Positions 15,301 through 63,897 of a stretch of 64,000 nucleotides of DNA are shown here, piece by piece. Position 1 is the stretch's first letter. The number at the start of each line of letters is the position of its first letter. A program made the translations under genes and the position numbers. Source of the DNA: Branchiostoma floridae (lineage: Eukaryota > Chordata > Leptocardii > Amphioxiformes > Branchiostomatidae); the NCBI RefSeq assembly GCF_000003815.2, contig NC_049990.1, positions 20,256,218-20,320,217 of the forward strand, read 5' to 3'. Under the pieces are notes generated by a model. That model saw only the letters and a list, made by a program, of their open reading frames with translations, did not search any database and had not been told where the DNA came from.

Positions 15301-18300
15301 GATCTCAGCAACCGTACACCCAGATGGGCTGATATCGCAATCTGAAAGTATAAATGATGTAAGAAATATGTAGCAGCCAATAACGACCCCCTGGGAATTA
15401 ATCTAAATTGGCATAACTGTACATAATTATGCATAACTATGCATAATTATGCATAACTTTTGAGGGTTATGCATAATTATGCATAAGGTTCCAAGAGTTA
15501 TGCATAATCATCCATAAGGTTCCAAGGTTTATGCATAACTATGCTGTTAAAAAGGGTTAGCATAAGGNNNNNNNNNNNNNNNNNNNNNNNNNNNNNNNNN
15601 NNNNNNNNNNNNNNNNNNNNNNNNNNNNNNNNNNNNNNNNNNNNNNNNNNNNNNNNNNNNNNNNNNNATTATGCATAATAATCGATAAGGTTCCAAGGTT
15701 TACGCATAAGTATGCTTGTTAAAAGGGTTATGCATAAGGGTTCTGATGATTATGCATAATTCTTGGAACCTTATGCATAATTATGCATAACCATTGGAAA
15801 CTTATGCATAATTATGCATAACCCTCAAAAGTTATCCATAATTATGCATAATTATGTACAGTTATGCCAATTTAGATTAATCCCTAGGGGGTCGTTATTG
15901 GTTGCTACGTATTTCTTACATCTTTTATACTTACAGCTTACGATATCAGCCCATCTGGGTGTACAGTTGCTGAGATCTGGGAGGTCACTCCCAAATAATA
16001 ATGGAATTCCCAAATTAAATCGGAGGGTGTTAATTGTACTTACTGGTAGTCTGTCTACACCAACTCTGCTGTCCGGGCTGTAACTGGCCACTAGGGAGCC
16101 AGCAGATGTTGGACGGAATGCTATAAGCAAGATGTAAACAGGCTAAAGTTGTACCAACCTGTTGAAATTATTTGAGAAAAAAAAGAAAGTTCTGTTTCTG
16201 TTCTTCTGTATGACAGATCCGTGAAGCAGCCTATAAGCTGTACCTTCACCCCAACCCTCAGCAGGAGAGAGTGTTAGAGACTCTCCTCACAGCCAGGAAC
16301 AAGCTGGCACAGCTCGTCGGGTATCCTACCTTCGCTCATAGGACTCTCAAAGGGACCATGGCTAGAGATCCAGGTAGAGAAAGAGCTATAGGATCAAACT
16401 GTTAAATTCACAACTAAGTCCTGAAAATCCTTTTTAGCTGTTTTAGAGATGGTGATTTCTGCAATGCTGCATTGTTCGCTGTTGATGTCATCAGTTCTTC
16501 TCATCTTTGCCGCTGGCAACAATTTTACTGTTGACTTGAAAATTCAAGCATACTGGTACTGCTTCTCTGATTAGCACTCAGCACTTATGGTTAAGAGTAT
16601 GAAGGCAGACAAACTATAGCTTCATGTTGTAGTATCATCTGTCCTTGTACATCTGTGCGGCCCTACAGTAGCGCTATGGAACCTACCCTGAACACCATAT
16701 TGTGTGGGAAAAACCTAGTACTTAAAAGTTTAATGAATGTGTCGCTCAAGCCTATCTTAAAAATTTTACACAATCTCTTGCTGGCTGGGCTTGATGACCT
16801 CTTCTCTTGTGGGCGGCAACTGTCGAGCCAGCTACCAGGAGCACACTTTAGACAGGCTAGTGACACTCTGGCTGCATGTACAATTCTGTGATTTGATAAA
16901 AGATGACATCCATAGAATACTATCAGCTAACGAGTTAACCTCGTTCTTCTCCACATTTCCCAGAAACAGTCATGAGTTTTCTGAAGGCTACAGGAGAAGG
17001 TCTGATCCACAGGACCATGGAGGAGTTCAGCCTGATGAGGCAGTACAAGGCTAAACACAGCCCCAGTAACCCCAACCTGTACCCCTGGGACCCACCCTAC
17101 TACAGTGCCTTCATCAAGGCAGATAGGTCTGTTTTACTATTACTGTCTATTATAGTAAAATACTAGCCTGATGAGGGAGTACAAGGCTAAACACAGCCCC
17201 AGTAACCCCAACCTGTACCCCTGGGACCCTCCCTACTACAGTGCCTTCATCAAGGCAGATAGGTCTGTTTTACTATTACTGTCTATTGTAGTAAAATACT
17301 AGCCTGATGAGGGAGTACAAGGCTAAACACAGCCCCAGTAACCCTAACCTGTACCCCTGGGACCCACCCTACTACAGTGCCTTAATCAAGGCAGATAGGT
17401 CTGTTTTACTATTACTGTCTATTGTAGTAAAATACTAGCCTGATGAGGGAGTACAAGGCTAAACACAGCCCCAGTAACCCTAACCTGTACCCCTGGGACC
17501 CACCCTACTACAGTGCCTTCATCAAGGCAGATAGGTCTGTTTTACTAATTACTGTCTATTATAGTAAAATACTAGCCTGATGAGGGAGTACAAGGCTAAA
17601 CACAACCCCAGTAACCCTAACCTGTACCCCTGGGACCCACCCTACTACAGTGCCTTCATCAAGGCAGATAGGTCTGTTTTACTATAATTACTATCTATTA
17701 TAGATACTGTAAATGCATTTAAGTTTGCGGGGATTCAATTTTGCAATAGCAGGAAAATTGAGTTTTCCCGGGGTTTTAAGTTGGCGGTAGCGCCGTAGAC
17801 CGTAGCTACATAATATAGGGATATTTAAATATTCGCGGTGAAGTGGCCACTGCAAAAAGCGTGAACATAAAACTACCACGAACAATTCTGCATTTACAGT
17901 AATTGGAGGCATGGTTTGGCTCATTGGTGTGCATCCAGTTACATGTATATTAGAGTTGCAGCATTTAAGGTGGAAGTGTACAATAGAATCCTTGAATCAT
18001 TGCATGGAAGCATGATTTTTCTCATCGTTGTTACCCCGTGAAAACACAGGTGTTGTAAACAGATGATGTGTAAGTTTGTCTTGAACTGTTGGTGTCCACA
18101 GATATGTGAATATAAGAGTGGCAGCAGGTAAGATGGAAGACTTAGTGGTGTGATGGGATACTTAGGGAATTGGAAGCATGTTTGGCTCATTTGGCACATT
18201 TTAAATTGATTCATTCAAATGTTGGGAAATTTTTTGCAAACTACAAGAAAGAAGCTTTAAAGTCTGATTTTCAAGGATTAAAAGCAAGTTCTGCAATTTT

Positions 18301-41952: not shown

Positions 41953-44900
41953 ATGGCTGTGAACATACCAGGCATCATCGCCATCGTGGTCTTCTACCTG
42001 CTCATCCTCGGGATTGGGCTGTGGGCGGCCCGAAGGGGAGCCCAGAAGAACCCGGACGGGCCCGAGAGCGAAGATGTCATGCTGGCGGGAAGGGACATCG
42101 GTCTGGTGGTGGGCATGTTTACCATGACAGGTACGGCGATATTTTCGTTTGGTCAAGAAATGATTATTTGAAAACAGTTCCTTATTTGAAAGTAGTTCCT
42201 TGCAGCAAATTCTGAGGTATGGATTACAGAAACATATTAAAGGCCATTACCCTGGGAACTAGACTCATACCGGGCCTGGCAGAGAATCCGCTCGGCTACC
42301 AAGGCACTTCTTCCCGAGGACCTTAGATAAGCACTCCGTTGAAGTGTCATGCAGGCGAGGGAAGGGGTGTGATTGCCTATTAGCCTGGATGCCAGACTGT
42401 TTCCAGGGCTAACATATGAAATTTCCTCGGCTCTAGGGCGTACTTGCTCCCAGGGGAATTTCATCACAGACCCTCTGAGTTAAACCAAAAAAACTCGTGA
42501 TAAAATTTCTTGGGCTGTATAGGCCATAGAAACAGTCTGGCATCCAGGCTAGGGGGGCATGTAGACCCTGGAGCCGAGGTGTTAGCCTATGTAGGTCATG
42601 AAAAACAGCCTGGTATCCAGGCTAAAAATTGTCATAAATGCATCCGAGGCGTCAACTGAACTGCAACATAACTAGTATACACACAGTTATACTGCACTGA
42701 GTTTACCGGATCAAGTGTTCATCCGGTTTTTAATAGCCATGGTGTCCTTGACCACATACTGGGTGAGGACACTTGGAAGAAAGCCAAGTCATCGGGTTAC
42801 CCGTTGTTGCTGTTGGTGTCACTGTATATATATAGAACACAACACGGTGTATTCCGTATCGTCCAAGGTATCAGGAGGGCTGAGACCGAGGGTGATGCGG
42901 AATACACCGTGTTGTGTTTTATTTATGTCATACCCACCTGAGAAAAACCATGTTTTGATGCGAAATGCGCCAGAAGTTGAACAAATTTGGTGCCCTCGAA
43001 AAAATAGTAATGTTCCAACGTCCGAATCAGGTATTTGAACGTTCGATGGCGCCACTCGAAACAGTTCGATTTATTCGAATGGAGCCCGTGTGATAAGCCC
43101 GGGCCGTACGGAAAGTTATCAGCCGGTCCGGAACACCCGTATCGAACGTTTTCGCGTCACAGGTATGACATAAATAGCCTTACACACTTTGGGACGCCCG
43201 TCAAGGTCGCTTTACAGCTGTCAGACCAGCTAGGGATAGTTGGAGATATTAAAAGATGGTTGGATTTCAGATTAAAGTGCTCACGCTGATAGTCTTACAC
43301 TGCACTCTACTTTTTGATTAGAGTTCAATTATTAATGTTGTGCTGTTGCTGCCATGTTCTGAGAGCTAAAACTCCAATACTTAGCTAGATTAACCTTGGA
43401 ATCGCTACTGCATATAATGCTATGGTCGCATCTGCTTAGGCTTATGCCTAGGTTACACATAGCCGACTTTGGCTCCCGACTCTCTCCCGACTGTGGTTTA
43501 GGAGTAATTCGGGAGCTAGTCGGCTGTAGTCGGCTGGCGTTCGGCTCAGTCGGCTGGCGTTCGGCTGGCGTTCTGCTCAGTCGGCTGGTGTTCGGCTGCT
43601 CCATCCGAATGTTTTGAAATGTTCAAAACATTCGGCTCTGAACGGCAACTCTGAAATGGGTCGGTTGGTGGTCGGCTGGTGTTCGGCACGGTCGGCTAGT
43701 GTTCGGTTGGTGTTCGGGAGTAAGTCAGCAGTCAAATTAAATCTTAAACACGCCATAAACACTGCTGACTTACTCCCAGCTTGTTTCCAACTAACCAATG
43801 ATTCACCCCAAGACCGTAGAAAAATCTCTGCTAACTCATTCCCAAGCCAAAAGATTATTGCCAGGACGTAGACGAATCACTCCCGAACTTTACACGACCG
43901 ACATCCAGCCAAAAACAAAAAGAACCATAAATACCGTATTGGAGCTATCTGTGATCCAAATTTGATCTCTTGGTGATGTTTACAAAATAGAGAAAAGGAT
44001 AATCTTGATTAAAAACGAAAATGAGCACTCTTTTGAAAATCGCTGATTATGTCTATTTCAAGTCGAGAGAGGGTCGGCAATCGGGTGGGAATCAGTCATG
44101 AGTGATTCGGTAGTCTGCGGCTAGAGGTCGGCATGGTAGGGAATAGGTTGGACAGCATTCAGGACACAGTTGAGAGTAAGTCATTTACTGGTCGGGAGAT
44201 GTTCGGGACATGTTCGGCGCTAAAAAAATAGGCGTGGCCTAAACTGGTCAGACTACTCCCGAACTTCTGCCGACTTGGGTCGGCTAAGAGTCGGCTGGTG
44301 TTCGGGAGCCAAAGTCGGCTATGTGTAACCTAGGCATTAGGTGCCATTTCCATACCGGGGCCCGGCCGGGCTGTTTGCGGAAACGGAAAATAAAAGTTCT
44401 TACCAAAGAATATACACACATCATACCCATTACTAATTTTGTTTACGTTCTGTGCGTTCTGTTGTCTTTTATATCATACTTTTCGTTTCTGAAAGCTACC
44501 CGGCCGGGCCCCCGGTTGGAAATGGGGACCTAAGACCAGGGCCCGGCCGGGGTGTTTGCGAAACGAAAAATGGAAATGTATACTTAAAAATATACACATA
44601 TAATATGATATACACGACTCTTCTCTTTACGTCTTGTGTATTTTGGTGTCTTTTATATTATATTTTTCGTTCCTGAAAGCTGCCCAGCCGGGCCCCGGTT
44701 TGGAAATGTGAAACGATCAATTGAGTTTTTGCCCAGTTGCATCTTGCAGTAAAAAACGTTCCATATTGACTTAAGCTTGAAAATAAATCATTTCTGTGCT
44801 GCCTGGAAAGTGTTTTGGCGTAAAACTTTAAATCTGTCAAACCCGTTATTTACGTGATATTGAAGTAGATTACTATAACTTGAGGGAAAAACCGGCACTG

Positions 44901-47900: not shown

Positions 47901-50900
47901 GGAGCATGATCAAGTCGAAAAGAATTATTTGAGTCCTCAATATTTCTTGGTTTGTCCCGATATCTCCCATTAATTGTGTGACCCCCCATGTTAACACTGC
48001 AAGCAGACAAGGGCCGTTTTGTTGAAGAACGTTCATATAATATCATACTACTCAAGAAGAAGAAGACTATAGTATTCTGTAGTAGCCTGGATGATTGCTA
48101 CCAATGCCTACAAATGCAAACTTTTGGCCAACACATATGACCAACAAGGCAACATGTGAAACTTTGCCTCGGCCCCAAGGTAAAATCTAGCGCGGCTGGC
48201 TAGCCTTGCTAGGCGGGGTAGAAGCTTGCAATGACCGAATAATCCTAGCCTACAACGGGAGGAGACTGGCAACCAGATTAACAGTGTTGTTACACAGATA
48301 TTCTTGTTTTCTGTGAATTGTTGAGAAATTTAAAACTTTCTTGTGTTACTTCCTGCTATTTATAACTTTACGTCAGGTCTTATTATTGACTTCTTGTTCT
48401 TTAAGCTTCATTTTTTCTTGTCGAATGAGATTTATTCTGCGCAAGATGCCGGTACTTCAAATTGCACTGTATGGATTGAGGTTATTTGCAAAAGTTCCAT
48501 GCGTTAGAATTTAGAAGTATTTCATAGTTTTCCAATAATGTCGGTCGTCCAAATCCGATTAACATCCAAAACTAATCGGTAAGTTCATGTTATTTGGAGT
48601 CAAGTTAGTGATTTCGGTCTGCGGTTGTTTCGATTTTGGTCAGTCTCAATCAATTCTCCTGGAATTTGGAAGGGTCGTGATTACATTCCCGGAACGGCGG
48701 GCGTCTCCGGGTTATTACCTCAGTAATAATTGACAAACCCAGGAGATGAAACCGATTCATCTTCTCGCTTGTGACGTAGGAAGTGACGTCAGGACCCGAG
48801 GACAAGCAGACCGCCGGTTGCTGAAGAAACTTTGCTCGAAAAACGTTGAACAAAGTTTCCACAACTCTCGCTAGAATGAATGAATCACAGCCGCGTGCCA
48901 GTGAATACGGTACATTTGAGATGTACTGCAACGGTCGTGTGGTGTACATAACGATTTATTTCTGCAGTGAATGAATGAATGAATGAATGGTATTTTTCCT
49001 GTTAAACCTTATAGTATTGCAACTGAATTATATTTTACTTACAACGAGTTAAAATTCGATCGCATGACAGTTAAAAACATTCCGTTCCAATAAAGGACAC
49101 AGACGTTTTGCATTTGATTTGAGTAGTTGATTGTAATTGCGTTGCGTAAATACAGAGAAAACAATTATGCAGCCAATAATGGATAAGATATTCCTTATTC
49201 CTGCAGTGTTGTGCCTACAACATTTTCTCCTGTTAAAGGTTGAAGCATGAAATGCAGTGTGTCTGTGTTATTTTTTTTAGTCAAAGCGCATTTTAAGCAT
49301 AATAGATTCAAAATATTGCATGTTATTACCTTGTCTCTTCTTCAGCAACTTGGGTGGGAGGAGGCTATATAAACGGAACAGCGGAAGTGATCTTTGACCC
49401 TGCGCAGGGATTTATCTGGTGTCAGGCGCCTTTTGGGTATGCCATCAGTCTCGTCATAGGTAAGTCCGTTAGCACCATTCAACAAAAATCCCAAATAATT
49501 ACAAATCTTTTAAAACACTGAAACAGTACAGAAAGACTGCTCATAGATTGATAACATAAAAACGCAAAGAAAATTACTATTTGATATTTAACAAACGATA
49601 AAACATTTTAGTTTTCAGTACATGCTGCTCTTAAATTGAAGGGAATATATTTTCTTTGCAAGGATAACTCAGTAACGTTATTTCCTTTTGGAAAAATGGA
49701 ATTTCCATTCCATGTTGATCAGATGTCATCCTTTCATGGTCCTAGCCATGGTACACTGACACATTACAGGCTAACAGTACTTGGGATTCATGAATGTAAA
49801 AAAAATGCTGTCAAAAGTCACCTACCTTAGTTTTAGTCCATTAAAATTCAAAGTAGCAGAGTTGTCCGACATCTACTCGTAATCGGAACATTTCATACGG
49901 TGCGACATGTTTAGAAAATGGACTAAAGCAAACTTGGAGCCTTTGACCCTCTTCACTACTTCCAAACAACATAAAAACACCAAACTTCGAAATATGAGCC
50001 TACGGACACCACAAAATTTTTTCGACACAATGTATAGGTAAATCCAAAGTACCAACATATCCCAAGAAAAAGCTACTAGGCTAAAAGTGTGACCTCTTCC
50101 ATTGCGTGGAAATGGTGATCTTTACCCTCAATGATCTCTCGCTGGAAGGGGCTACTGATTGGGCCCCCTCCTCGAGACCGATAAACGGTTGATTAGGAAA
50201 TCCTAAGTGCATCTCTATAATGGTTCTATCTGAATGTTTGCACAGGAGGACTTTTCTTCGCCAAGAAGATGCGGGCAGCGGGATACGTGACGATGTTGGA
50301 CCCGTTCCAGCAGCGGTACGGAGACAGAATGGGCGGGCTGCTCTTCATCCCCGCTCTGCTGGGGGAAGTCTTCTGGTCCGCCGCCATATTGTCCGCTCTG
50401 GGTAGGTCACAACAGAGAATACACCTTTCTCACGCTGCGGCCATGATAGATCGAAAACGAAGTCAATGAGGTAAACAGACAAAACTTATTCATAAAACCA
50501 GCTCCCATTAAGTTTTCCTCCAAATCACACAAGTTTTCACAAATTATAAGTTCAAATTATAAATATTATGACTTGTGTTATGCACCGAAAGATGTAGCAA
50601 TTTATAGTAGCGTAGACTGATCCCATAGTCCATTAAGAGATGCAAAATAAAATTTGAAAATTAAAAAAAAATAATGCAAATGTTTGACGGACATGCAGTC
50701 ATTCTCGGATGGTCAATTTCCTAACTGCCATGCTACCATCGGTGATGATGATGAACAGTCTTTTGTTTGCCACATTGAACTCGTTTTCGATCTATCATGG
50801 CCGCTGCGCGAGAAAGGTGTATTCTAGAATCTTAGAAAGAAGAGCGTCAACATGCCTGGGTAGCGTGCTTTATGAAAACATCAAAATAGAATAAAAATCA

Positions 50901-53900
50901 TACATTCAGACATTTTTTTTTTCTTTTACTTGCAGGAGCGACGCTGAAAGTTGTCTTGGAGCTGGAGATTAACACGGCAGTCATCATCTCAGCAGCCATT
51001 GCCGTCTTCTACACCTTATTTGGGGGGCTGTACTCAGTGGCTTATACTGACGTCGTACAGCTTATTTGCATATTTCTAGGTCTGGTAAGTAGATCTCTGA
51101 TACCTATACTAACAGTGTAATGATTAGTCTTGAGGATTGTTGTACTATTGTAGTCAAGCTCATGACATGCACATCAGCGGTTACGAAGCATAAGGAGGTA
51201 AGCAGCATGTGTACATTACACAAGGTACTCCTTGCCAGGGAGCCGTCTTTATTGTACAGTAGACTACATTTGGTATCGGGCCAGCATAGTTATCATACAA
51301 GACACGCGGCACGGCAAAACTTAAGAACTGAAAAACCAAAAACAAACAGCCTGAAAAAATCCTTCACATATAGAGCAGCATCAGATTGGAACAAAGTATC
51401 ACATGAGCTGCAAACTGCGAACACATCCAGGAATTTCAGACGGCAGCTGGTGAAACATATGCGAGACTTAGCTAAAGACACATGAGGGGCTTGATGATTT
51501 TTTGGATAAGGCACATGCGTTTTGTTTAATGATTTTTATTGACATGTTGTATGTGTGTATGTTGCAAACTGTATGTGTCCAAGTATTATGTGTATTACTC
51601 GTTACTCGAAGATTAGTTGTTGCATTGAATGTTAACAACTAAAGGAGTTAAAGAACAATGAATAATAAACAAGGTTCCAAAAGGTCTCTCACTAAAATGA
51701 ACACGGGACCCGGTAACAAAGAGACGCTTTGACGGAAGGGAACACCGAGGACGGTTACCTCTGGTATCTGGCAGTCCACCGGGACAAATTTGTAGCTACG
51801 GAGCCCGGCTGTGGCTACATACCTGACGGTCACTTTTGCAATTGGGACCTTAGTCTAGTTGGTGTCAATGAAGTTGAGTTTTGTTTTTCATTCGACTTCT
51901 TTTTCCTTCTGCGCGTTCCCGTAAGACTAACTTCGTCAGATATGGATGCTCGTTAGTGAGTTTTTGTTTCCAGAAGATACCAGAAGATACATGGATATTG
52001 TTGCTGTTCATCTGATGACGTATTTTCTGTTTCTTTCTCACACAGTGGCTCTCTATCCCCTTCGCCCTGACGAATCCCCTGGTGACGGAAATCGGGAACA
52101 CCACCCTGACACGGCTCCTGTACACACCTGTAAACGCCTCCGTCTACAACAGAACCTTCAACGAGACAGAGACGACGGGCTGGTACGGGACGTGGGACAC
52201 CACGTACACAGGGGTGTGGATTGACTTCGCCCTGTTACTGGTGAGGTTTTAAATGCACAGATGATACATGCACTTGCCTATTGAAACAACCTTTCGCTAG
52301 TCTCTTACTCATCCGTTATACAATATTGCAAGTCTAGCTCCTGAGGTCAGTAAGCTTGCTTGAGAGTCCCACAAAAATCATATTTTTTGTAGTTGTTGAA
52401 AATGACTTTTACTGTGAAAGGGACAGTTGTTGTTAAGGTTAGCTGACCTTTATTCGTTGTGTACCTAAATTCGAATTCGTTACTTTCAACAACAGTAGAT
52501 CTTTTGAGGGAGATACGTCGATGAAGCTTTTAGTCAGTGTTCTGAACATTTGAATCTCTCAACTTTGTAATTCTCTGGGTACTACCGATTTTACGCTTAG
52601 ACTGTACCCTCAATATCCTGTTTAAATTTTTATTAAAGAAGCTATTATAGGTACACCACGAATAAAGGTCAACAAACGTCAACCGACAGGATTCTTGAAA
52701 TGGGAATGTCCATGACGCTATACCTTCTCTACTTCTCTTTACTCCCTTCTCTCTAGTCTTGCGGCGGTCTGCCGTGGCAGGTGTATTTCCAGCGGGTACT
52801 CTCCTCTAGCTCCGCCCTGCGTGCGCAGGCCCTGTCCTTTGTCGCTGCCTTCGGCTGTGTCCTCATGGCTATCCCCTCTGTCCTGATCGGAGCCATCGGT
52901 GCTTCTACTGGTAAGTTTCTTCCTTCTACCCCACTTAAATGTTTTACAACGTATCATACATGTCTGTTGTTGTTTTATCTGCTAGATGTGTGGAGGAGTT
53001 CCGTGGCAGGTGTACTTTCAGCGTGTGTTGTCCTCCAGATCAGCGGGCCGTGCGCAGTTCCTGTCGTTCACCGCTGCGATTGGCTGCGTCATCATGGCCA
53101 TTCCCGCTGTCCTGATTGGTGCGATTGGAGCCTCCACAGGTGACCCGGATGTAGATGGAACTGTCATGGCGGTGGTGGCGGTTGCTTGCTCTTCTGAGCA
53201 AATCATCTCAGCACGACTACTTTAACAGCTTCAAATCTCAATTCTCTCCTGTTCTGTTGCAGACAACTTTGATCTGAGCCCTTGTTCTACTTTTCCTTTG
53301 TTCATTTTTGTTCGTTTCGCTCTACTACAAGACTTTTAAAACTTAAATTGAGCATATCTTTCAATTTCACTGGTCTCCCTCTTATCCGTTTTTTTATGCT
53401 TCAATGGGTTTCGAGGGAATTATATTTCTGGGCGTTTTGGCCATTCAGTTATTTTGTAAAGATTTTATACTGGGCAACATTTCAAAAGCTTCATAGACAA
53501 AGACTTCTCCGCACCACGAACTTTGCCTTCTGATGAGTGTGCCTTAGGTTCCAGTTATCCAGATAACACAGTCTCCTACATGACTTATCTGTTACATTGG
53601 TGGCTGCCGATGTAACATTGCACATTTTAGACAATTTCTGTCCCAAGTCGCTCTTTTCTCCAACGCAGTCCGGTCCTATGTAGATGTTTTTTTATATACA
53701 TGTACTATAAAGGATACCACTGACATGCCACAATCCACAATACGTACCAGTTGATGTTGTATTTCTTTCCTACGACATAATATAGCTGCATGGTCTCTAC
53801 CGTAACTGTACACCATTTGTCGTACAATCGTTATCAGACCATCCTCCTACGCAGGAAAATCCAACGCGAAACCGCCTGTCTGGATATACCCTGCTTTCTC

Positions 53901-56900
53901 AACCGTCACCCTTAGTTCCTGACCACCCTGCTTATAATATAATTATTAATGAGCTTATCCTTATATATGCGAGACCCCTTTTAAAAACTGAAAGGCTTAT
54001 TCTCTGATTGGCAGCCAGTCGGTTTTGGGGGGACGTCCACAGGAACTAAGGGTGACGGTTGAGAAAGCAGGGTACGTCCAGACAGGCGGTTTTAATGTTG
54101 GATGTGCCTGCGTAGGAGGATGTATCAGACGTTCTTTTGATTTGATGTTGTCTTATCTTTTTCTTGTAGACTGGCCAGAAACAAGCTACGGCAAGGATCC
54201 TGCCGTTGAGGGAGAAGCCGGTCTGATTCTTCCTCTGGTCCTGCAGCACCTGACTCCGACGTGGGTGTCGTTCTTCGGACTTGGCGCTGTGTCAGCAGCC
54301 GTCATGTCGTCTGCAGATTCCTCCATCCTGTCAGCGAGCTCCATGTTCTCCAGGAACGTGTATAAGCTCGTCTTCCGCCAGAAGGTTTGTGGTCTTATAT
54401 TTGAGTTTTCTATGAATGGGGGTTTCTGCGTAGCCTGAAGAGATAGCCAGCCCAGATAGACAGCTCAGCCTTTTCCGTAAACCCTTTCTGCCAGGAGGAA
54501 GAAAGAAAAAGAACGCACCAGCAAAAACAATATGTTCTCTCCTTCGGGAAAACATAAATATTTTATATTTTATAAAGCTGATGATGAAATCATTTTCGGA
54601 GATTTGTTATCTGTTTCCAAACGTAAAGGTAAAGTCTTTCCCGTTCTGCATAGTGCGGCGCCTATCTCATTTTCCTTTGGGCCACACAGCAGGGTCCACT
54701 GGTAGTGGTGTAAGTTCATCGTTTATTACCTCCATGAAATGTCATGGAGGTTATATTTTACCCCGCGTTTGTCTGTGTGTGTGTCTGTGTGTGTGTCTGT
54801 GTGTAAACAAGATAACTCAAGAACGGCTGGGGGAATTGGTTTCATACTTGGTGTGTTGGTAGTGTGTGATGAAAGCTGGAAATGATTAGATTTTGGACCC
54901 CCTAGCGACTTCCCTTGGTACTGCAGCGCAACTTCCGGTTTTGCTATCTCGGTGTTCTGAACATGCTATGGTCACGATTTTATAGTGTTAGATAGCTCTT
55001 GTGCTCAGGAAGAAGTGACATAAGTTTGGGCTCCCTAGCGTCTAGTTTGGGGATAGCAGGGGCATTTTTGTCAAAAACTTCTGACGAGGATAACTCAAGA
55101 AGGGAACAACGGATTTTCATGATTTTTGGTATGTAGGTACCTTAGACAATGTTTACAAGATAAGATACTGATCATGCAAAAAAGGAGTACATTTGCATAA
55201 TTAATGAGAATATTCTATCATAGCAGTTTTTTCAATGTATCTCTTGTCCCGGACGTGATATGGTCGTGACATTTGGGTGGTAGATAGCTTTTAGCGTCAT
55301 AAAAAAGTGGGGCAAGTTTCAAGTCCCCTAACATTTAATTGTGGAACTGCAGGGGTGTTTTTGTAAAGACACTCCAAAGAGGATAACTGCAGAAAGGAAC
55401 GACGGATTGCCTGCATTTTAGGTATGCAGGTAGCTTGGGCAAAATGTTTTTTCATTTTATTCAAATGAGGACTTAATTTGCATAATTAATGAGGAAATTG
55501 TATAGTTCCATTGTTTTCAATAACTGGACCTCAATACATGTAACACAATGTTAATTATGATATTTGGAATATAAGCAGATACCAAATATGGTAATGAGGA
55601 ACTTATTTGCATAATTTATGTGAAAATTGCAAAACCACTTTATGATTAATAATGGGAATTTTATAATTGTGATATGTGTATGTTTTGTATTCCTATAAAG
55701 CAGTATGCACTGTAAAGTTGTTTGTATGACTCGGCCGGGGATCGAACTCACGACCCCCCTCTCGCGTGCAAGGCTTGTATCCTGACCGCAAACCATTGTG
55801 ACAGTTTTGATTATGTACTTTCCCATTTTTGCCGGGGCATACATTTTGAGAGATAATCTATGGGAAAGTTATAGTTAATTAAAAACCTTTTCTTTATGCC
55901 CAGGCGTCTGAGAAGGAAATCCTCTGGGTGATGCGTGCGGCCATTTTTGTGGTGGGAGCGCTGGCGACTGTCCTGGCACTGACTATAGACAGTATCTACG
56001 GTATGTTCCTTTAGATTTGATCAACTTGATAAGGCCACAGCAAGTAAATTTTATGGATCCCCTCCGAATACATCCTCTGCAGACTCCAAATTTAATGAGA
56101 GTGAAAACAACAAGATTATCAAGATTTTTAAAAAACTGTTCACCATAAACGCTGTAACGAGAATTGAAGCGACAAAACATGGCATCGTAGCCAACAACCT
56201 GATTGTGTATTCAAGAGGTGTGCAAAGTGACACAAGCGTGGTAGACTTGGTATCGCCTACCTATTTGACAACTATGACAACTACAGTCATTGGTGCCACT
56301 TTTACCATCAAACTGAACTACAGTTCTGTACTATACAGATATGGCTACATGTACCTCACTAGTGCCATTTGTATAAGTGCAATCAAGACTACAAAACGAC
56401 ATATTTTCCCATTTTGTTGGGAATTTATTTTTTTTCGAAATCAGGTGAAAATTAATGAGTGCGCTGATGTCATGCATAAAATTTACTTGCTATTACCTAA
56501 GCAGGCTACAGTATTTCACATTCTGCTAGGCAACACTGCTAGATACTAAATGTTGTTGTAGGTACCACATGTTTATGCAGAGCTGAACTGCCAGCGTCTG
56601 TGGACATGGTTTGTGTATTTCTTTGTAAGGGCGCCCGTAACCAATGCGACAATTCCGTGTACTGCAGGGCTGTGGTTCCTGTGTTCGGACCTGGTGTTTG
56701 TGATCCTGTTCCCCCAGCTGATCTGCGTGGTGTACCTGCAGTTCACCAACACGTACGGCTCTCTGTGCGGCTACATCGTGGGGATGATTCTCAGGTTATG
56801 TGGAGGGGAAACGATCATTGGTCTTCCGCCAGCCATCAAGTACGTGAACGTCGCTATCTTGTACTTTGCACATGCACAACTGCGGCGGTGCCCGTCAGGG

Positions 56901-58184
56901 GTCGTAGCCTCGGTCGGTCGACGAAGCCACTAATTTGTCCCGGTGTGCTGCCGGCTACCGTGTCGTTAATGGCGTCTATTAACTCGTTAAAAGAAATCTG
57001 GGGCCCAGTCGGGCCCAAATATAGCCCAACAAGGGGTGGGTAAAAGGCGGCCGGAAGTCGATACTTGCCGCTGCCCTGGTTAGATCTATATAATCACCAG
57101 TAGCTAAGTTATTTATGTAAAGCAATCTAAAATGGTTCCATTTCTCCACACCGTTAGATACCCATTCTTCGATCACTGATTACTGGGATGTATGACGTCA
57201 GGAGTAGGTTAAAGGTGACTGGAAATCGACACCTGCCACCGTCCTCTTTTTCAGGTCTACATAATCACCAGGACTGTACCTAAGTTACATATATAAACAT
57301 TCTAATATGGTTCCATTATTCCACACCTTCATAAAATACTCATTCCTCGAGCACTGATCACCGGGACCTATGGCGTCAGGAGTGGATCAAAGGTGACTGG
57401 AAGTCTATACTTGCCGCTGTCCTGTTTTTTGGGGTCTACATAATCGCCAGGACTGCTTAATTTGCATATGAAAACATTCTAAAATGGCTCAATTTCTCCG
57501 CACCTTCATCAAATATCCATTCATCGAGCACTGATAAACGGGACCTATGACGTCAGGAGTGGGTCAAATGTGATAGGAAGTCGATACCTGCCGCCGTCCT
57601 GTTTTTTAGGTCTACATAATCACATTTAGGGACTGTAGCTAAGTTGCATATGTAAACATTTTAAAATGGTTCCATTTCTCCACACCTTTAGATACCCATT
57701 CTTCGAGCACTGATTACTGGGATGTATGACGTCAGAAGTAGGTCAAAGGTGACTGGAAGTCGATACCTGCCGCCGTCCTGGTTAGCTAGGTCTACATACG
57801 AGTAGTCCATGAGTAGTGTATCTAATCTGCATAAATTATGCAGAATATACAAAAATATATGCAAAATACCCTAAAATGGTTCCATTTCTCCACATCCTTA
57901 GATACCCGTACTTCGAGGAGTCGACGAACACCCAGCTGTTCCCGTTCCGTACCCTGGCCATGCTGTGCAGCTTCATCACCATCCTGCTGGTGTCCTTCAT
58001 CACGGAGAGGCTGTTTAAGGGAGAAGTCATCCCCATGAAGTTCGACATCGCGGGATGCTACAGTCCGGACAGGGCACAGAACGGACCCAAGGCGACGGAA
58101 GTGGCGATGAACGACGCCGGATATCCGGAAACCGCATTTCCGCCAGATGGGAGATACACTCCATATGATACCTCCAAGCTGTAA
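41953..58184 (+). CDS. SLC5A7: High-affinity choline transporter (sodium/solute symporter family), complete gene A
   Basis: Imports choline with Na+ and Cl- into cholinergic terminals, the rate-limiting step for acetylcholine synthesis; a multi-pass (13-helix family) membrane protein. Exons: 41953-42130, 49346-49459, 50246-50401, 50936-51084, 52046-52240, then 6a 52757-52910 or 6b 52986-53139, 54170-54384, 55904-56000, 56668-56839, 57902-58184. With one exon 6 the sum is 1713 nt (570 aa); human CHT1 is 580 aa. Family blocks: GGRDIGL-like AGRDIGL (exon 1), [14 protein letters not shown] (exon 2), [14 protein letters not shown] (exon 3), [14 protein letters not shown] (exon 4), [12 protein letters not shown] (exon 6), [20 protein letters not shown] (exon 7) and [13 protein letters not shown] (exon 9). 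Exon 5 carries four N-glycosylation sequons (N217, N229, N234, N238) in a predicted external loop. The C-terminal tail is shorter than in vertebrates. AATAAA at 58355. Confidence 0.95.
42381..42551. mobile_element. MITE with perfect tagcctgg inverted ends
   Basis: tagcctggatgccagactgt tt at the left is perfectly mirrored at the right (aaacagtctggcatccaggc ta). 171 bp in intron 1 of SLC5A7-A. The ends resemble those of the MULE-like element at 6162-6556, but no 9-bp duplication is seen here. A further half-copy (agcctggtatccaggct) lies at 42608-42626. Confidence 0.7.
42834..42920. mobile_element. Palindromic MITE
   Basis: aacacaacacggtgtattcc g near 42837 is mirrored by cggaatacaccgtgttgtgt t ending about 42918. 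A longer module from tttatgtcatacc (42923) to ggtatgacataaat (about 43162-43175) follows, and may be a second, adjoining inverted-repeat element. Confidence 0.6.
43445..44336. mobile_element. Harbinger-like element with cggct-rich interior
   Basis: Ends tgcctaggttacacatagcc gactttggctccc and the exact inverse at 44303-44336, flanked by TTA (43442-43444, 44337-44339), the usual PIF/Harbinger target. The interior has tandem gttcggctgg/agtcggctgg motifs and two nested inverted repeats (near 43605-43635 and 43720-43780). No transposase. Confidence 0.75.
44343..44708. mobile_element. Two adjacent MITEs of the gcccggccgg family
   Basis: Two copies head-to-tail: about 44343-44525 and 44536-44706. 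Each has ggcccggccgggctgtttgc-type left ends and mirrored gctacccggccgggccc/ggttggaaat right ends. A third copy is at 8833-9031. Confidence 0.75.
44709..46904. other. Intron 1 of SLC5A7-A, unannotated stretch
   Basis: No exon-like ORF. At 46613-46640 three tgacct half-sites occur in the same orientation with spacers of 4 and 6, a possible nuclear-receptor response element. A (ta)n run is at 46027-46040. Confidence 0.3.
46905..47467. mobile_element. Diverged MITE of the atggatgacatcc family
   Basis: The left end ccatgttcatttgataatat gga and the inverted right end catccgta...ataaaataaacatggcct enclose a fragment (47245-47310) related to 39235-39310. Located in intron 1 of SLC5A7-A. Confidence 0.5.
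47468..49345. other. Intron 1 of SLC5A7-A, no recognised feature
   Basis: Only a (gaat)n microsatellite at 48966-48988 and short chance ORFs were seen. Confidence 0.35.
51120..51660 (+). mobile_element. LINE 3'-end fragment in SLC5A7-A intron 4
   Basis: A 121-codon ORF (51120-51485) ends with a segment containing [20 protein letters not shown], then [17 protein letters not shown] and [10 protein letters not shown]. This is the familiar C-terminal end of CR1/L2/Jockey-like reverse transcriptases (HSYNTR...YR.A..WN.LP..L....FK..L..HL). It is 5'-truncated and followed by an AT-rich tail near 51650. It is not a host gene. Confidence 0.7.
51685..51862. mobile_element. Partial DNA element of the ggcagtccaccggga family
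   Basis: It shares ggcagtccaccgggacaaat, ggctacat and a cttttgcaattgggacct end with 34771-35092 and 61530-61812. It lies in SLC5A7-A intron 4 beside the LINE fragment. Confidence 0.55.
52436..52675. mobile_element. MITE in SLC5A7-A intron 5
   Basis: gttagctgacctttattcgt tgtgtacct is mirrored by aggtacaccacgaataaagg tcaac. Its acctttattcg ends resemble those of 59820-60045. Confidence 0.65.
52757..52910 (+). CDS. SLC5A7-A exon 6a (alternative)
   Basis: 154 nt, acceptor cttctctctag and donor ACTG|gtaagt. Encodes [20 protein letters not shown] through the end GAIGAST, phase 0 in and phase 1 out. The downstream exon 6b encodes the same segment with 42 of 51 residues identical. It is the closer of the two to human CHT1 at the SSSSA position (human remembered as VLSSSSATYAQ). 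Confidence 0.9.
52986..53139 (+). CDS. SLC5A7-A exon 6b (alternative)
   Basis: 154 nt, acceptor tttatctgctag and donor ACAG|gtgacc, same phases as 6a. Encodes [20 protein letters not shown] through the end GAIGAST. Substitutions relative to 6a, by position in the exon: 1 S/M, 5 L/V, 18 S/R, 21 L/G, 25 A/F, 29 V/T, 32 F/I, 36 L/I, 41 S/A. No stop and intact splice sites indicate selection as a coding exon. The donor is weaker than that of 6a. Confidence 0.85.
53840..54122. mobile_element. hAT-like foldback MITE with 8-bp TSD next to exon 7
   Basis: Arms of about 80 bp begin catcctcctacgcagg and end with the inverse cctgcgtaggaggatg. The 8-bp repeat tatcagac flanks at 53832-53839 and 54123-54130. 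The right target duplication lies only about 40 bases before the exon 7 start at 54170, so the insertion abuts the branch-point region. Confidence 0.8.
54715..55640. repeat. Complex interspersed repeat with internal subrepeats, intron 7
   Basis: It begins with the hairpin acctccatgaaatgtcatgg aggt. Loosely repeated blocks follow: gaggataactcaagaaggga acaacggatt, ggtatgtaggtacctt and tttgcataattaatgag at about 55082-55210, again at 55377-55495, and partly at 55590-55625. A (tgtgtctg)n run is at 54770-54805. Superfamily unknown. Confidence 0.55.
55735..55800 (-). repeat. tRNA-derived SINE head, antisense
   Basis: The reverse complement contains ggtttgcggtcaggataca (A-box-like) and gtcgtgagttcgatccccgg (perfect B box). 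The acceptor stem and flanks do not support a functional tRNA. Confidence 0.55.
57045..57900 (+). repeat. About 180-bp tandem repeat leading into SLC5A7-A exon 10
   Basis: atggttccatttctccacac at 57132, 57307, 57484, 57665 and 57876 marks five units with periods of 175, 177, 181 and 211. The last unit contains the genuine exon 10 acceptor and start (ttag|ATACCCGTACTTCGAG). Earlier units contain pseudo-versions such as ttagatacccattcttcgag followed by an early stop (cactga). A single related unit occurs in gene B at about 61430-61500, so the sequence predates the gene duplication. Confidence 0.85.
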
Positions 58185-60990: not shown

Positions 60991-63709
60991 CTATAGCTTG
61001 GTGGCATCATAAGGGGTGTATTTTCCTTCTGCCGGAAAAGTGGTATCCTGATACCCGGCGTTGTCCATCGCCACTTCCGTCGCCATGGGTCCGTTCTGTG
61101 CCCTGTCCGGACTGTAGCATCCCGCGATGTCGTACTTCATGGGGATGACTTCTCCCTTGAACAGCCTCTCTGTGATGAAGGACACCAGCAAGATGGTGAT
61201 GAAGCTGCACAGCATGGCCAGGGTACGGAACGGGAACAGCTGGGTGTTCGTCGACTCCTCGAAGAACGGGTATCTGAAGTTGTGGAGAAATGGAACCATT
61301 TTAGATTGTTTTGCATATACAACTTTATGCAAATGAGGCTCTGCTTTGCATAAATATACATATACGTCGCTCAAAAGAATGAAAATTCATCAACGCCTGC
61401 TCGAGTTACACAGTCCTGGTGATTGAATAGACCTAAAAACCAGGACGGCGGCAGGTAGCGACTTCTGGTTGCCTTTGACCCAATCCTGACGTCACACATA
61501 CCAAAGATCTCTTAATGCTGAGGTAGCAACTGGGATAAGGGGGCCCTATCGGGCAGTTCAGGGTCTGTTTTCGGCACTTTCAGACGTAACCCCTTCGTGG
61601 CCCCGTGGGACACCCTGTGGCTATCGGGCTATATTTGGGCCCGGAGTTAAAATCAAACCGGGACACGGTGACAAATAGACGCCGTGACCCACCCGTGAAA
61701 ACACTGAAAGGTACCCCCGCAGTATCCGGCAGTCCACTGGAAAAAAATTTGTGGCTTCGGAGCCTGACCGGGGCTGCATCCCAGACAGACACCGGCGAAA
61801 TTGTGACCTAAGCATGACAAGTGACGAGTTTACGACGTTTACGTACTTGATGGCAGGCGGAAGACCAATGATCGTCTCCCCTCCGCATATCCTGAGGATC
61901 ATCCCCACGATGTAGCCGCACAGAGAGCCGTAGGTGTTGGTGAACTTGAGGTGCACCACGCACACCAGCTGGGGGAACAGGATCACAAACACCAGGTCTC
62001 CGCACAGTAGAAACAGCCCTGCAGTACACGAAATCATCGCACAGGTTATGAGCGCCCTTACAAAGAAAGACACTGTACATTTCCAGAGACTTCAAAGTTC
62101 ATGCTCATACCATGTTGGTCAAGTCGAAATGTAATTTTCAACACAAAAATTGAACTAACCCAATTTCTGTCCAAATCCTGCCTTTGTCAAGGGATGACAT
62201 TTTAGCAAGAGGACCAAAAGAATTGCCATTTATAAATGGCAGGGTGTGGAACGGGACGAAATGTTTGCCATTTACAAATGGGAGTACGTTTTGTTTTTCT
62301 AGCTAAATTTACTTAACATCAGGGCTCTAGAACCATCCCTCAACGGGGAAGGGGGCGCCATAGACTTTCGCAAACGTATGATCCACTGCTCACCGAGCCA
62401 CGTGTTCTATCTGCATAACGTGAAATCACTGAAGCAGCGGCTTTCTAATTCCTTGACAAAGACTGGAGCTGGAAAAATAATAAATTTGGGTAATGTTTTT
62501 TACCGTTACCATTACATAGTTTTTCCTAGCAGAAAAATGAAATCCTGCCAAAAGTTAGTAAGGTGTTTATTACGTCTAAATTAACATACCGTAGATGGTC
62601 TTTATAGTCAGTGCCAGGATAGTGGCGAGGGCCCCCTCACAAAGAATGGCCGCGCGCATCACCCAGATGATTTCCCTCTCAGATGCCTGGACATGAAAAA
62701 AAAAAAAAAACCTTACGCTCAACACACACACACAACTACAACCTTTCCTTCGATCGAATCTTCAAACGTGCGTCCCGGCAAGAATTGACAATCTACGTTT
62801 ACCAACACCGCTACAATGGAAGTGAGGCACGCCTTGCATTCGGGTATAGGCCAGCCAAAGACTTTTTAATGCCTACGACTTTCTGTGCTTATTTTAGCAC
62901 TGAGCACTAAAACTATGAAGGATGATCACCGATATAACACACATTCGCATAATTCCACCAGGTGCCATTATACCGCCACCTCAAAAAACGTTGTTATAGA
63001 GGCCTTCTCAAGATTGTCGTTAACACCTAGATGTCTTAATTGTATTATGTTTAGGATATTTAACATTCGGTGTTCAAGACAATCTTGGGAAGACCTCTAT
63101 ACTAACGTTTTTTGAGGTGGCGGTATTGTGTCACCTGGTGGAATTACTATCGATGTTACTAGTACCCCGCTGTAGTGCTCAGACCACAAGCCGTGTGGCC
63201 GAAGCAAAATAGAAACAGAGAAGCGTCATCCTATACAATTTGACATAATCTTGAAAACAGACCACAGACCTTCTGGCGGAAGACAAGCTTATACACGTTC
63301 CTGTCTACCTGGGCTGGCTATCACGTCAGGCTACTCAGATACCCACATTCATAGAAAACTCAATATAGGACCACGAACCTTCTAGATCTGGCGGAAGACA
63401 AGCTTTTACACGTTACTATCTACCTGGGCTGGCTATCACGTCAGGCTAATCAGATACCCACATTCATAGGATACTCAAATATGAGACCACGAACCTTCTG
63501 ACGGAAGACAAGCTTATACACGTTCCTGGAGAACATGGAGCTCGCTGACAGGATGGAGGAATCTGCAGACGACATGACGGCAGCTGACACGGCGCCAAGT
63601 CCGAAAAACGACACCCACGTCGGAGTCAGGTACTGCAGGACCAGGGGCAGGATCAGACCAGCTTCTCCCTCAACGGCAGGATCTTTGCCGTAGCTTGTTC
63701 GTGGCCAGT
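60991..63709 (-). CDS. SLC5A7: Second choline transporter-like gene (gene B), last four exons, 5' part outside window
   Basis: Exons in transcript order: 63495-63709, 62590-62686, 61847-62018, 60991-61273; lengths 215, 97, 172 and 283 nt, identical to exons 7-10 of gene A, with the same phases and splice sites. Encodes [20 protein letters not shown], the conserved [50 protein letters not shown], and the tail PYDATKL before TAG (60991-60993). Exon 7 differs from that of gene A at about 13 of 215 positions, and the adjoining intron starts also align, so the duplication is fairly recent. The genes are tail-to-tail about 2.8 kb apart. Exon 8 reads [10 protein letters not shown] where gene A has [10 protein letters not shown], placing a Glu in a predicted helix. 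No stop or frameshift was seen in the visible part; whether it is functional is unknown because exons 1-6 lie beyond 64000. Confidence 0.9.
61530..61812. mobile_element. DNA element of the ggcagtccaccggga family
   Basis: gggggccctatcgggcag, cctgtggctat, tccggcagtccactggaa and ggctgcatccc match 34771-35092 in order; the right end is gaaattgtgacct. Located in the last intron of gene B, 34 bases from the exon at 61847. Confidence 0.6.
62955..63141. mobile_element. Foldback MITE in gene B intron
   Basis: ccaccaggtgccattatacc gccacctcaaaaaacgtt is mirrored by aacgttttttgaggtggcgg tattgtgtcacctggtgg. Arms extend through agaggccttctcaagattgt c. Flanked by aatt on both sides. Confidence 0.8.
63245..63520 (-). 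repeat. Tandem copies of the gene B exon 7 donor region
   Basis: On the minus strand the genuine exon 7 end (AACGTGTATAAGCTTGTC..CAGAAG|gttcgtgg) is followed by two further copies at about 63375-63415 and 63260-63295, each about 115-120 bases apart with intron sequence gatagccagcccaggtag and tatgaatgtgggtatctga. The most distal copy keeps CAGAAG|gtctgtgg intact; the middle one has an insertion (agatct) before AGAAG. Confidence 0.8.
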
Positions 63710-63897
63710 CTACGTACAGGAATAAAGACATCTGAACAAGGCAGAAATGGCTGACAGAAACTGTTCGTCTCGTGCTGTACGATGAGCGAATGAATTAATT
63801 TGCGTGTATGATGTAAATTGAGATTGTAGCAATACATCAGAGATATCCCTGATAATGTACAATGGAATAAATATTGGTAGACCTCGCGCGTACGCGT

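Follow-up and report, generated by a model that had tools for sequence, protein, structure and literature searches.

An amphioxus CHT1-type choline transporter gene with a tandem pair of sixth exons, very probably spliced mutually exclusively

The 64,000-nucleotide stretch of amphioxus DNA analysed here (the window; contig positions 20256218-20320217) carries on its plus strand a gene, gene A, that is very probably an SLC5A7/CHT1-type high-affinity choline transporter gene with a tandem exon duplication spliced in a mutually exclusive manner. The two versions of its sixth exon, 6a (52757..52910) and 6b (52986..53139), are each 154 nt long and are separated by an intron of only 75 nt (52911..52985), all on the plus strand. 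They share their phase, 111 of 154 nucleotides and 42 of 51 residues, and 6a corresponds to residues 248-298 of human CHT1, comprising part of TM6, the loop and TM7. The 3' splice site of 6a reads ...TCTCTCTAG|T and its 5' splice site CTG|GTAAGT, those of 6b ...ATCTGCTAG|A and CAG|GTGACC. The initial annotation had described two adjacent exons of this length, spacing, phase and identity with intact splice sites, which are of the GT-AG type, and all of its figures were reproduced upon re-measurement; the end of exon 5 at 52240 and the start of exon 7 at 54170 are likewise confirmed, and exon 5 joins exon 7 in frame through either 6a or 6b. Within the window each exon is the sole strong match of the other (tblastn E ~9e-25, blastn E 2e-22), and their nucleotide differences at codon positions 1, 2 and 3 number 9, 4 and 30 (51 sites each), which is the pattern of coding sequence.

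CHT1 returns choline to cholinergic nerve endings for the synthesis of acetylcholine (PMC11589582). Compared with solved structures, the product of gene A is closest to human CHT1 (8j74, E 7e-178), followed by 9rws (E 5e-121), which is titled SLC5 member 7 and whose residue numbering fits the bacterial sfCHT described in PMC13220886, whereas SGLT1 matches at only E 1e-7. Pfam finds the SSF domain (PF00474, E 2e-34) and no second domain at E up to 0.1, and the earlier designation of the gene as a choline transporter is thus borne out. Exon 1 (MAVNIPG...FTMT; 41953..42130), absent from the initial annotation, was located by tblastn using the N-termini of bacterial CHT relatives (the best 80 of 207; best E 2e-11) and joins exon 2 in frame. 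Exons 2 (49346..49459), 3 (50246..50401), 4 (50936..51084), 5 (52046..52240), 7 (54170..54384), 8 (55904..56000), 9 (56668..56839) and 10 (57902..58184, including the stop codon) follow on the plus strand. Exons 2-10 form a single frame whose length is unchanged when 6b is substituted for 6a, and the complete coding sequence with 6a has 570 codons. The 207 bacterial relatives came from a scan with a three-row alignment, of which the best 80 served as rows in the comparisons below; a bacterial scan with a single query sequence found no relative. All 16 choline-cage, gate and sodium-site residues that were checked are retained in gene A (human numbers W62, Y67, Y91, W141, W254, W406, Y403; Q259, R260, S263; A343, S346, S347, D349, S350, D188), their roles being those given in PMC11589582 and PMC13220886.

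The reading frame leaves room for one exon 6 per message. Inclusion of both exons brings a stop at 54207 and inclusion of neither a stop at 54224, each within exon 7 with three exons still downstream, so the earlier argument that the frame enforces exclusivity holds; such out-of-frame transcripts would be expected to undergo nonsense-mediated decay. The short intron between the exons may act in the same direction. Among its 15 adenines the best branch-point candidate is TTTAC (score 5.3), at distances of 36 nt from the 5' and 39 nt from the 3' splice site. The matrices behind this score, like those for the splice sites, are human ones and may fit the amphioxus genome poorly. The second-ranked candidate (4.1) lies 8 nt from the 3' splice site, which is too near for a branch point, and the next four (2.6-3.1) are all at most 28 nt from the 5' site, while weaker ones at 46, 48 and 50 nt (2.0, 2.3 and 1.1) are, as predictions, close to the steric limit. 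The only AG dinucleotides of the intron are at positions 4 and 74. As the steric limit for the distance from a 5' splice site to its branch point is about 50 nt (PMC5740500, PMC7969005), and the best predicted branch point falls below it, the 75-nt intron may itself hinder the joining of 6a to 6b in addition to the frame. Of human exclusive-exon clusters, 57 (9%) show possible steric interference and 377 (60%) have lengths not divisible by three (PMC5740500).

A search for other signals that might govern the choice gave little. Long-range pairing between introns, in the form of competing docking and selector stems, was rejected as a means of control, as the duplexes were no better than shuffled controls (40 for two intron pairs, 10 for one). 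The 60 nt before 6a hold six PTB-like words compared with 1.1 expected; because this stretch is a pyrimidine tract and the controls shuffled its bases singly, the excess is no evidence. Rfam at gathering scores gave no match across the whole window. Intron 6 also contains a long near-perfect inverted repeat (53840-54122) whose arms, of 53 and 26 nt, are 96% and 92% complementary; it has no further copy in the window and may be a small element resembling a transposon.

The nine residues by which 6a and 6b differ are at exon positions 1, 5, 18, 21, 25, 29, 32, 36 and 41, corresponding in human numbers to 248 S/M, 252 L/V, 265 S/R, 268 L/G, 272 A/F, 276 V/T, 279 F/I, 283 L/I and 288 S/A, the four at positions 18 to 29 being those correctly named before. 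Exon 6 contains W254 of the choline cage and Q259, R260 and S263 of the exit gate (roles as given in PMC11589582 and PMC13220886), and all four are identical in the two versions. Seven of the differences lie beyond the gate, in the loop and the helix that follow it, and two (248 and 252) precede the gate. A bacterial relative was modelled (35 rows, pLDDT 86.9), and there the helix that follows the gate occupies 202-232. If its W189 is equivalent to W254 this is human 267-297, which would assign sites 268-288 to TM7 and 265 to the preceding loop. The changes S/R at 265, L/G at 268 and A/F at 272 alter charge and size. It had been proposed that the isoforms may differ in affinity or coupling; because the choline and gate residues of the exon are the same in both, a change of affinity is unproven and the proposal is weakened.

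Both versions fit the transporter family. Scored against a bacterial exon-6 profile of the best 80 of 207 relatives, 6b, 6a and human CHT1 obtain 88.0, 85.4 and 88.4 bits. None of the nine differences falls on a column that is invariant in these 80 rows, the strictest being 252 (I in 77 of 80), and the differing columns are more variable than the others (mean entropy 1.74 compared with 0.93 bits, Mann-Whitney p 0.010, same rows). Six of the differences (265, 268, 272, 276, 279 and 283) at first seemed to share one face of a helix (for residues 264-286, a range picked after inspection of the data, R is 0.89 and p 0.0003, or p 0.002 among variable positions). Across eight ranges and three helix angles, however, p varies between 0.0002 and 0.21, and for TM7 as placed from the bacterial relative (267-297) it is 0.03-0.17, or 0.0008-0.02 when TM7 ends at 287; we regard a one-face stripe as suggestive only.

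Both copies look constrained, and the pair looks old. By NG86, 6a and 6b differ by dN 0.143 and dS 1.82 (pS 0.684, bootstrap 0.50-0.88), a ratio of ~0.08 that is an average across the two copies. When neutral drift of 6a was simulated (3000 runs), an open frame with at most nine amino acid changes was kept in 40% of runs at 0.10 substitutions per site, in 1% at 0.20 and in none at 0.30. Gene B, the tail-to-tail neighbour of gene A, differs from it over exons 7-10 by dS 0.22, far less at silent sites than 6a from 6b (Fisher p 3e-9), and the exon pair thus looks much older than the A/B gene duplication, with the reservation that the A-B dS may have been reduced by gene conversion. If the pair predates the A/B split, gene B should have inherited both exons. 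Draws of 51 codons from the other exons (5000 draws) reach a pS of at least 0.684 in 0% of cases for A-B, 0.8% for A-C, 6.6% for A-D, 12% for A-E and 26% for A-F, which would make the pair roughly contemporary with the cluster. With the exception of A-B, all pairs are so diverged at silent sites that their ages are only approximate. A duplication of another kind and much younger than 6a/6b is seen at 17029-17703, where a peptidase M3-type gene contains five head-to-tail 136-nt copies of an exon end and its 5' splice site, 95-98% like the first, copies 2-5 being without the exon start. The Pfam M3 score of this gene, which we take to be MIPEP, is 26.3 bits, just below the cut-off of 27.

Gene A is one of six clustered CHT genes in the window and the neighbourhood that was read, 130 kb to the left (minus the adjoining 218 bases) and ~58 kb to the right. 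On the contig these are gene C (~20182445-20189295), gene D (20190432-20196579, exon 1 not found) and gene E (20197787-20204687) on the minus strand, gene F (20216546-20224750) on the plus strand and gene B (20317211-20377384) on the minus strand; stray exon-1 or exon-2 pieces lie at 20206870, 20212269 and 20213738. Exons 10 to 7 of gene B are in the window (60991..63710, minus strand, stop codon included; tblastn extents, which may overrun splice sites, 60994-61275, 61843-62088, 62585-62698 and 63495-63710), and its exons 1-3 are beyond it. The assembled sequence contains no exons 4-6 of gene B, the span between exons 3 and 7 consisting of 23,197 N and 30,339 readable bases; assembly gaps lie at contig 20320218-20324839 and 20333274-20351077, and these exons are in gaps or absent. 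Two further features of gene B are a tandem repetition into the intron of the region of the exon 7 end and its 5' splice site (63272-63524; 115 nt, 2.2 copies), and an exon 8 (62585-62698) that evolves faster than its neighbours, with 24 of 32 residues common to A, dN/dS ~0.4 and charged changes. Genes C, D, E and F each have a single exon 6, and the sequence from exon 5 to exon 7 is free of N in all four. The pair is therefore present in one of the five readable genes, and the four others show that a gene of this type can do with a single version.

The paralogues also differ from gene A at the choline site. W406, one of the aromatic residues that surround choline, is retained in genes A and F, in human and in all of the best 80 of 207 bacterial rows, whereas genes B, C, D and E have F at this site. 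Y91 is replaced by F in gene B and by S in gene F, which also has A in place of S263. Gene A alone has every choline-site residue checked intact, the residues of B-F being taken from tblastn mapping rather than finished gene models and those of B exons 4-6 lying outside the comparison. In human CHT1, W406F raises the Km from 12.2 to ~358 uM (~30-fold) and halves Vmax, whereas Y91F and S263A mainly lower Vmax (PMC13220886). Because of this ~30-fold effect, the paralogues with W406F may be low-affinity or carry another substrate.

The exon versions lean towards different relatives. Over the nine differing sites the BLOSUM62 sums with C, D and E are 18, 21 and 14 for 6b and 3, 2 and 4 for 6a. With human, 6a sums to 11 and 6b to -2 over the six sites 265-283, and to 13 and 10 over all nine, near to both; with gene F, the nine sites give a slight lean to 6a (16 compared with 12) and the six sites 9 each. 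Trees are less telling. That of the exons other than 6 firmly groups A with B and D with E and is weak for the remainder, with human as the sole outside row, and that of exon 6 decides no arrangement for the branching order of 6a, 6b and the paralogues (6a+6b p 0.16; 6b+C+D+E p 0.13; 6a+human p 0.20). Over the 51 columns of exon 6 a protein from a Leptospiraceae MAG groups with human (88/62) and then with 6a (93/85), probably by chance on so few columns.

Other readings of the pair have to be weighed against exclusive splicing of two working exons. The one that we consider possible, if rather unlikely, is that both exons are used but are not switched, the choice between near-equivalent exons being left to chance and both proteins doing the same job. 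It would agree with the placing of the differences at columns that vary in the family, with the unchanged choline and gate residues and with the single exon 6 of C, D, E and F. However, the pair was kept open across a synonymous divergence akin to that of whole paralogues, and 265, 268 and 272 change charge and size at sites where 6a and 6b lean to different relatives. We find it improbable that one exon is dead or dying and intact only by recent loss. The crude score of the 5' site of 6b is indeed weaker than that of 6a (6.8 compared with 10.5), and the figure for purifying selection averages both copies, yet three further exons of gene A have 5' sites of 5.3-6.3, at or below 6b, and a dS of ~1.8 with nine amino acid changes and no stop far exceeds the ~0.1-0.2 neutral substitutions per site that the simulations allow.

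The origin of the pair is a separate matter. That 6b (or 6a) came from a paralogue of the cluster by ectopic recombination, and not by duplication inside gene A, seems unlikely to us, though the closeness of 6b to C, D and E at the differing sites would be explained by it. Exon 5 of A and C (52046-52240; contig 20185640-20185834) has a pS of 0.195 compared with 0.433 over the remaining exons together, and because these exons are unusually close, gene conversion has probably taken place. By residues, however, 6a and 6b are closest to each other (42 of 51, compared with 36-38 with C, D and E), and the exon tree is neutral. An artefact of assembly, by collapsed haplotypes or mis-joined paralogues, is hardly credible; the region does have assembly gaps and tandem paralogues, but the exons differ at 28% of nucleotides, have ordered splice sites and the same phase, and there is no N across window positions 40419-64000. 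Among the best candidates of a genome-wide DNA search, the 6a query found 6a, 6b and one 72% match (gene C), and the 6b query found 6a and 6b only, and together these observations largely refute it.

The layout of the pair has precedents. NKCC2/SLC12A1, an ion-coupled transporter with a LeuT-like fold, has the exclusive cassettes A, B and F, and its isoforms differ in ion affinity. The cassettes encode alternative forms of one transmembrane helix with part of the neighbouring intracellular loop (PMC4237776); unlike gene A, where part of TM6 plus TM7 is exchanged, NKCC2 belongs to family SLC12 and has three cassettes, at TM2. Human OGDH, a metabolic enzyme gene, has the tandem exclusive exons 4a/4b, and the branch points of its intron lie 25-41 nt from the 5' site (PMC7969005), having been mapped experimentally whereas that of gene A is predicted. 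In amphioxus itself exclusive exons were demonstrated by RT-PCR for Fgfr IIIb/IIIc (and IIIx) (PMC5703972), which, unlike 6a/6b, encode a receptor domain and are controlled by Esrp. Human CHT1 (SLC5A7), of the same family as gene A, is identical to 6a and to 6b alike at 39 of 51 residues. A search of the open-access literature found no report of an exclusive exon pair in a high-affinity choline transporter, nor in an amphioxus one; the splicing layout is a familiar one, seen here in a gene for which that search turned up no precedent.

Based on these data we propose that the predicted branch point is too near the 5' splice site of 6a for 6a and 6b to be easily joined, that transcripts with both or neither exon would be lost, and that each remaining mRNA would carry one exon 6, with common substrate and exit-gate residues and one of two versions of the loop and TM7. 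As the splice sites of 6a are the stronger, 6a may be used by default, with regulation acting on the inclusion of 6b. The two products would then probably both work and bind choline at an unchanged site, their differences lying in turnover, ion dependence, surface delivery or membrane environment and not in substrate. A wider and more doubtful thought starts from a pair of roughly the cluster's age. C, D and E would have fixed a 6b-like form (basic at 265, aromatic at 272) together with W406F, which B also has, while A stayed intact with both versions, of which one is nearer the paralogues and the other, in the loop and TM7, nearer vertebrate CHT1. Choline handling might then vary in the cluster both through permanent substitutions in the copies and through splicing in the gene that remained high-affinity.

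One gene should thus give rise to a pair of slightly different transporters. With a core loop and helix encoded in two forms and the substrate site held constant, it offers a natural swap experiment on that part of the protein. The cluster moreover combines alternative splicing with tandem gene duplication, which allows these two sources of transporter diversity to be compared directly.
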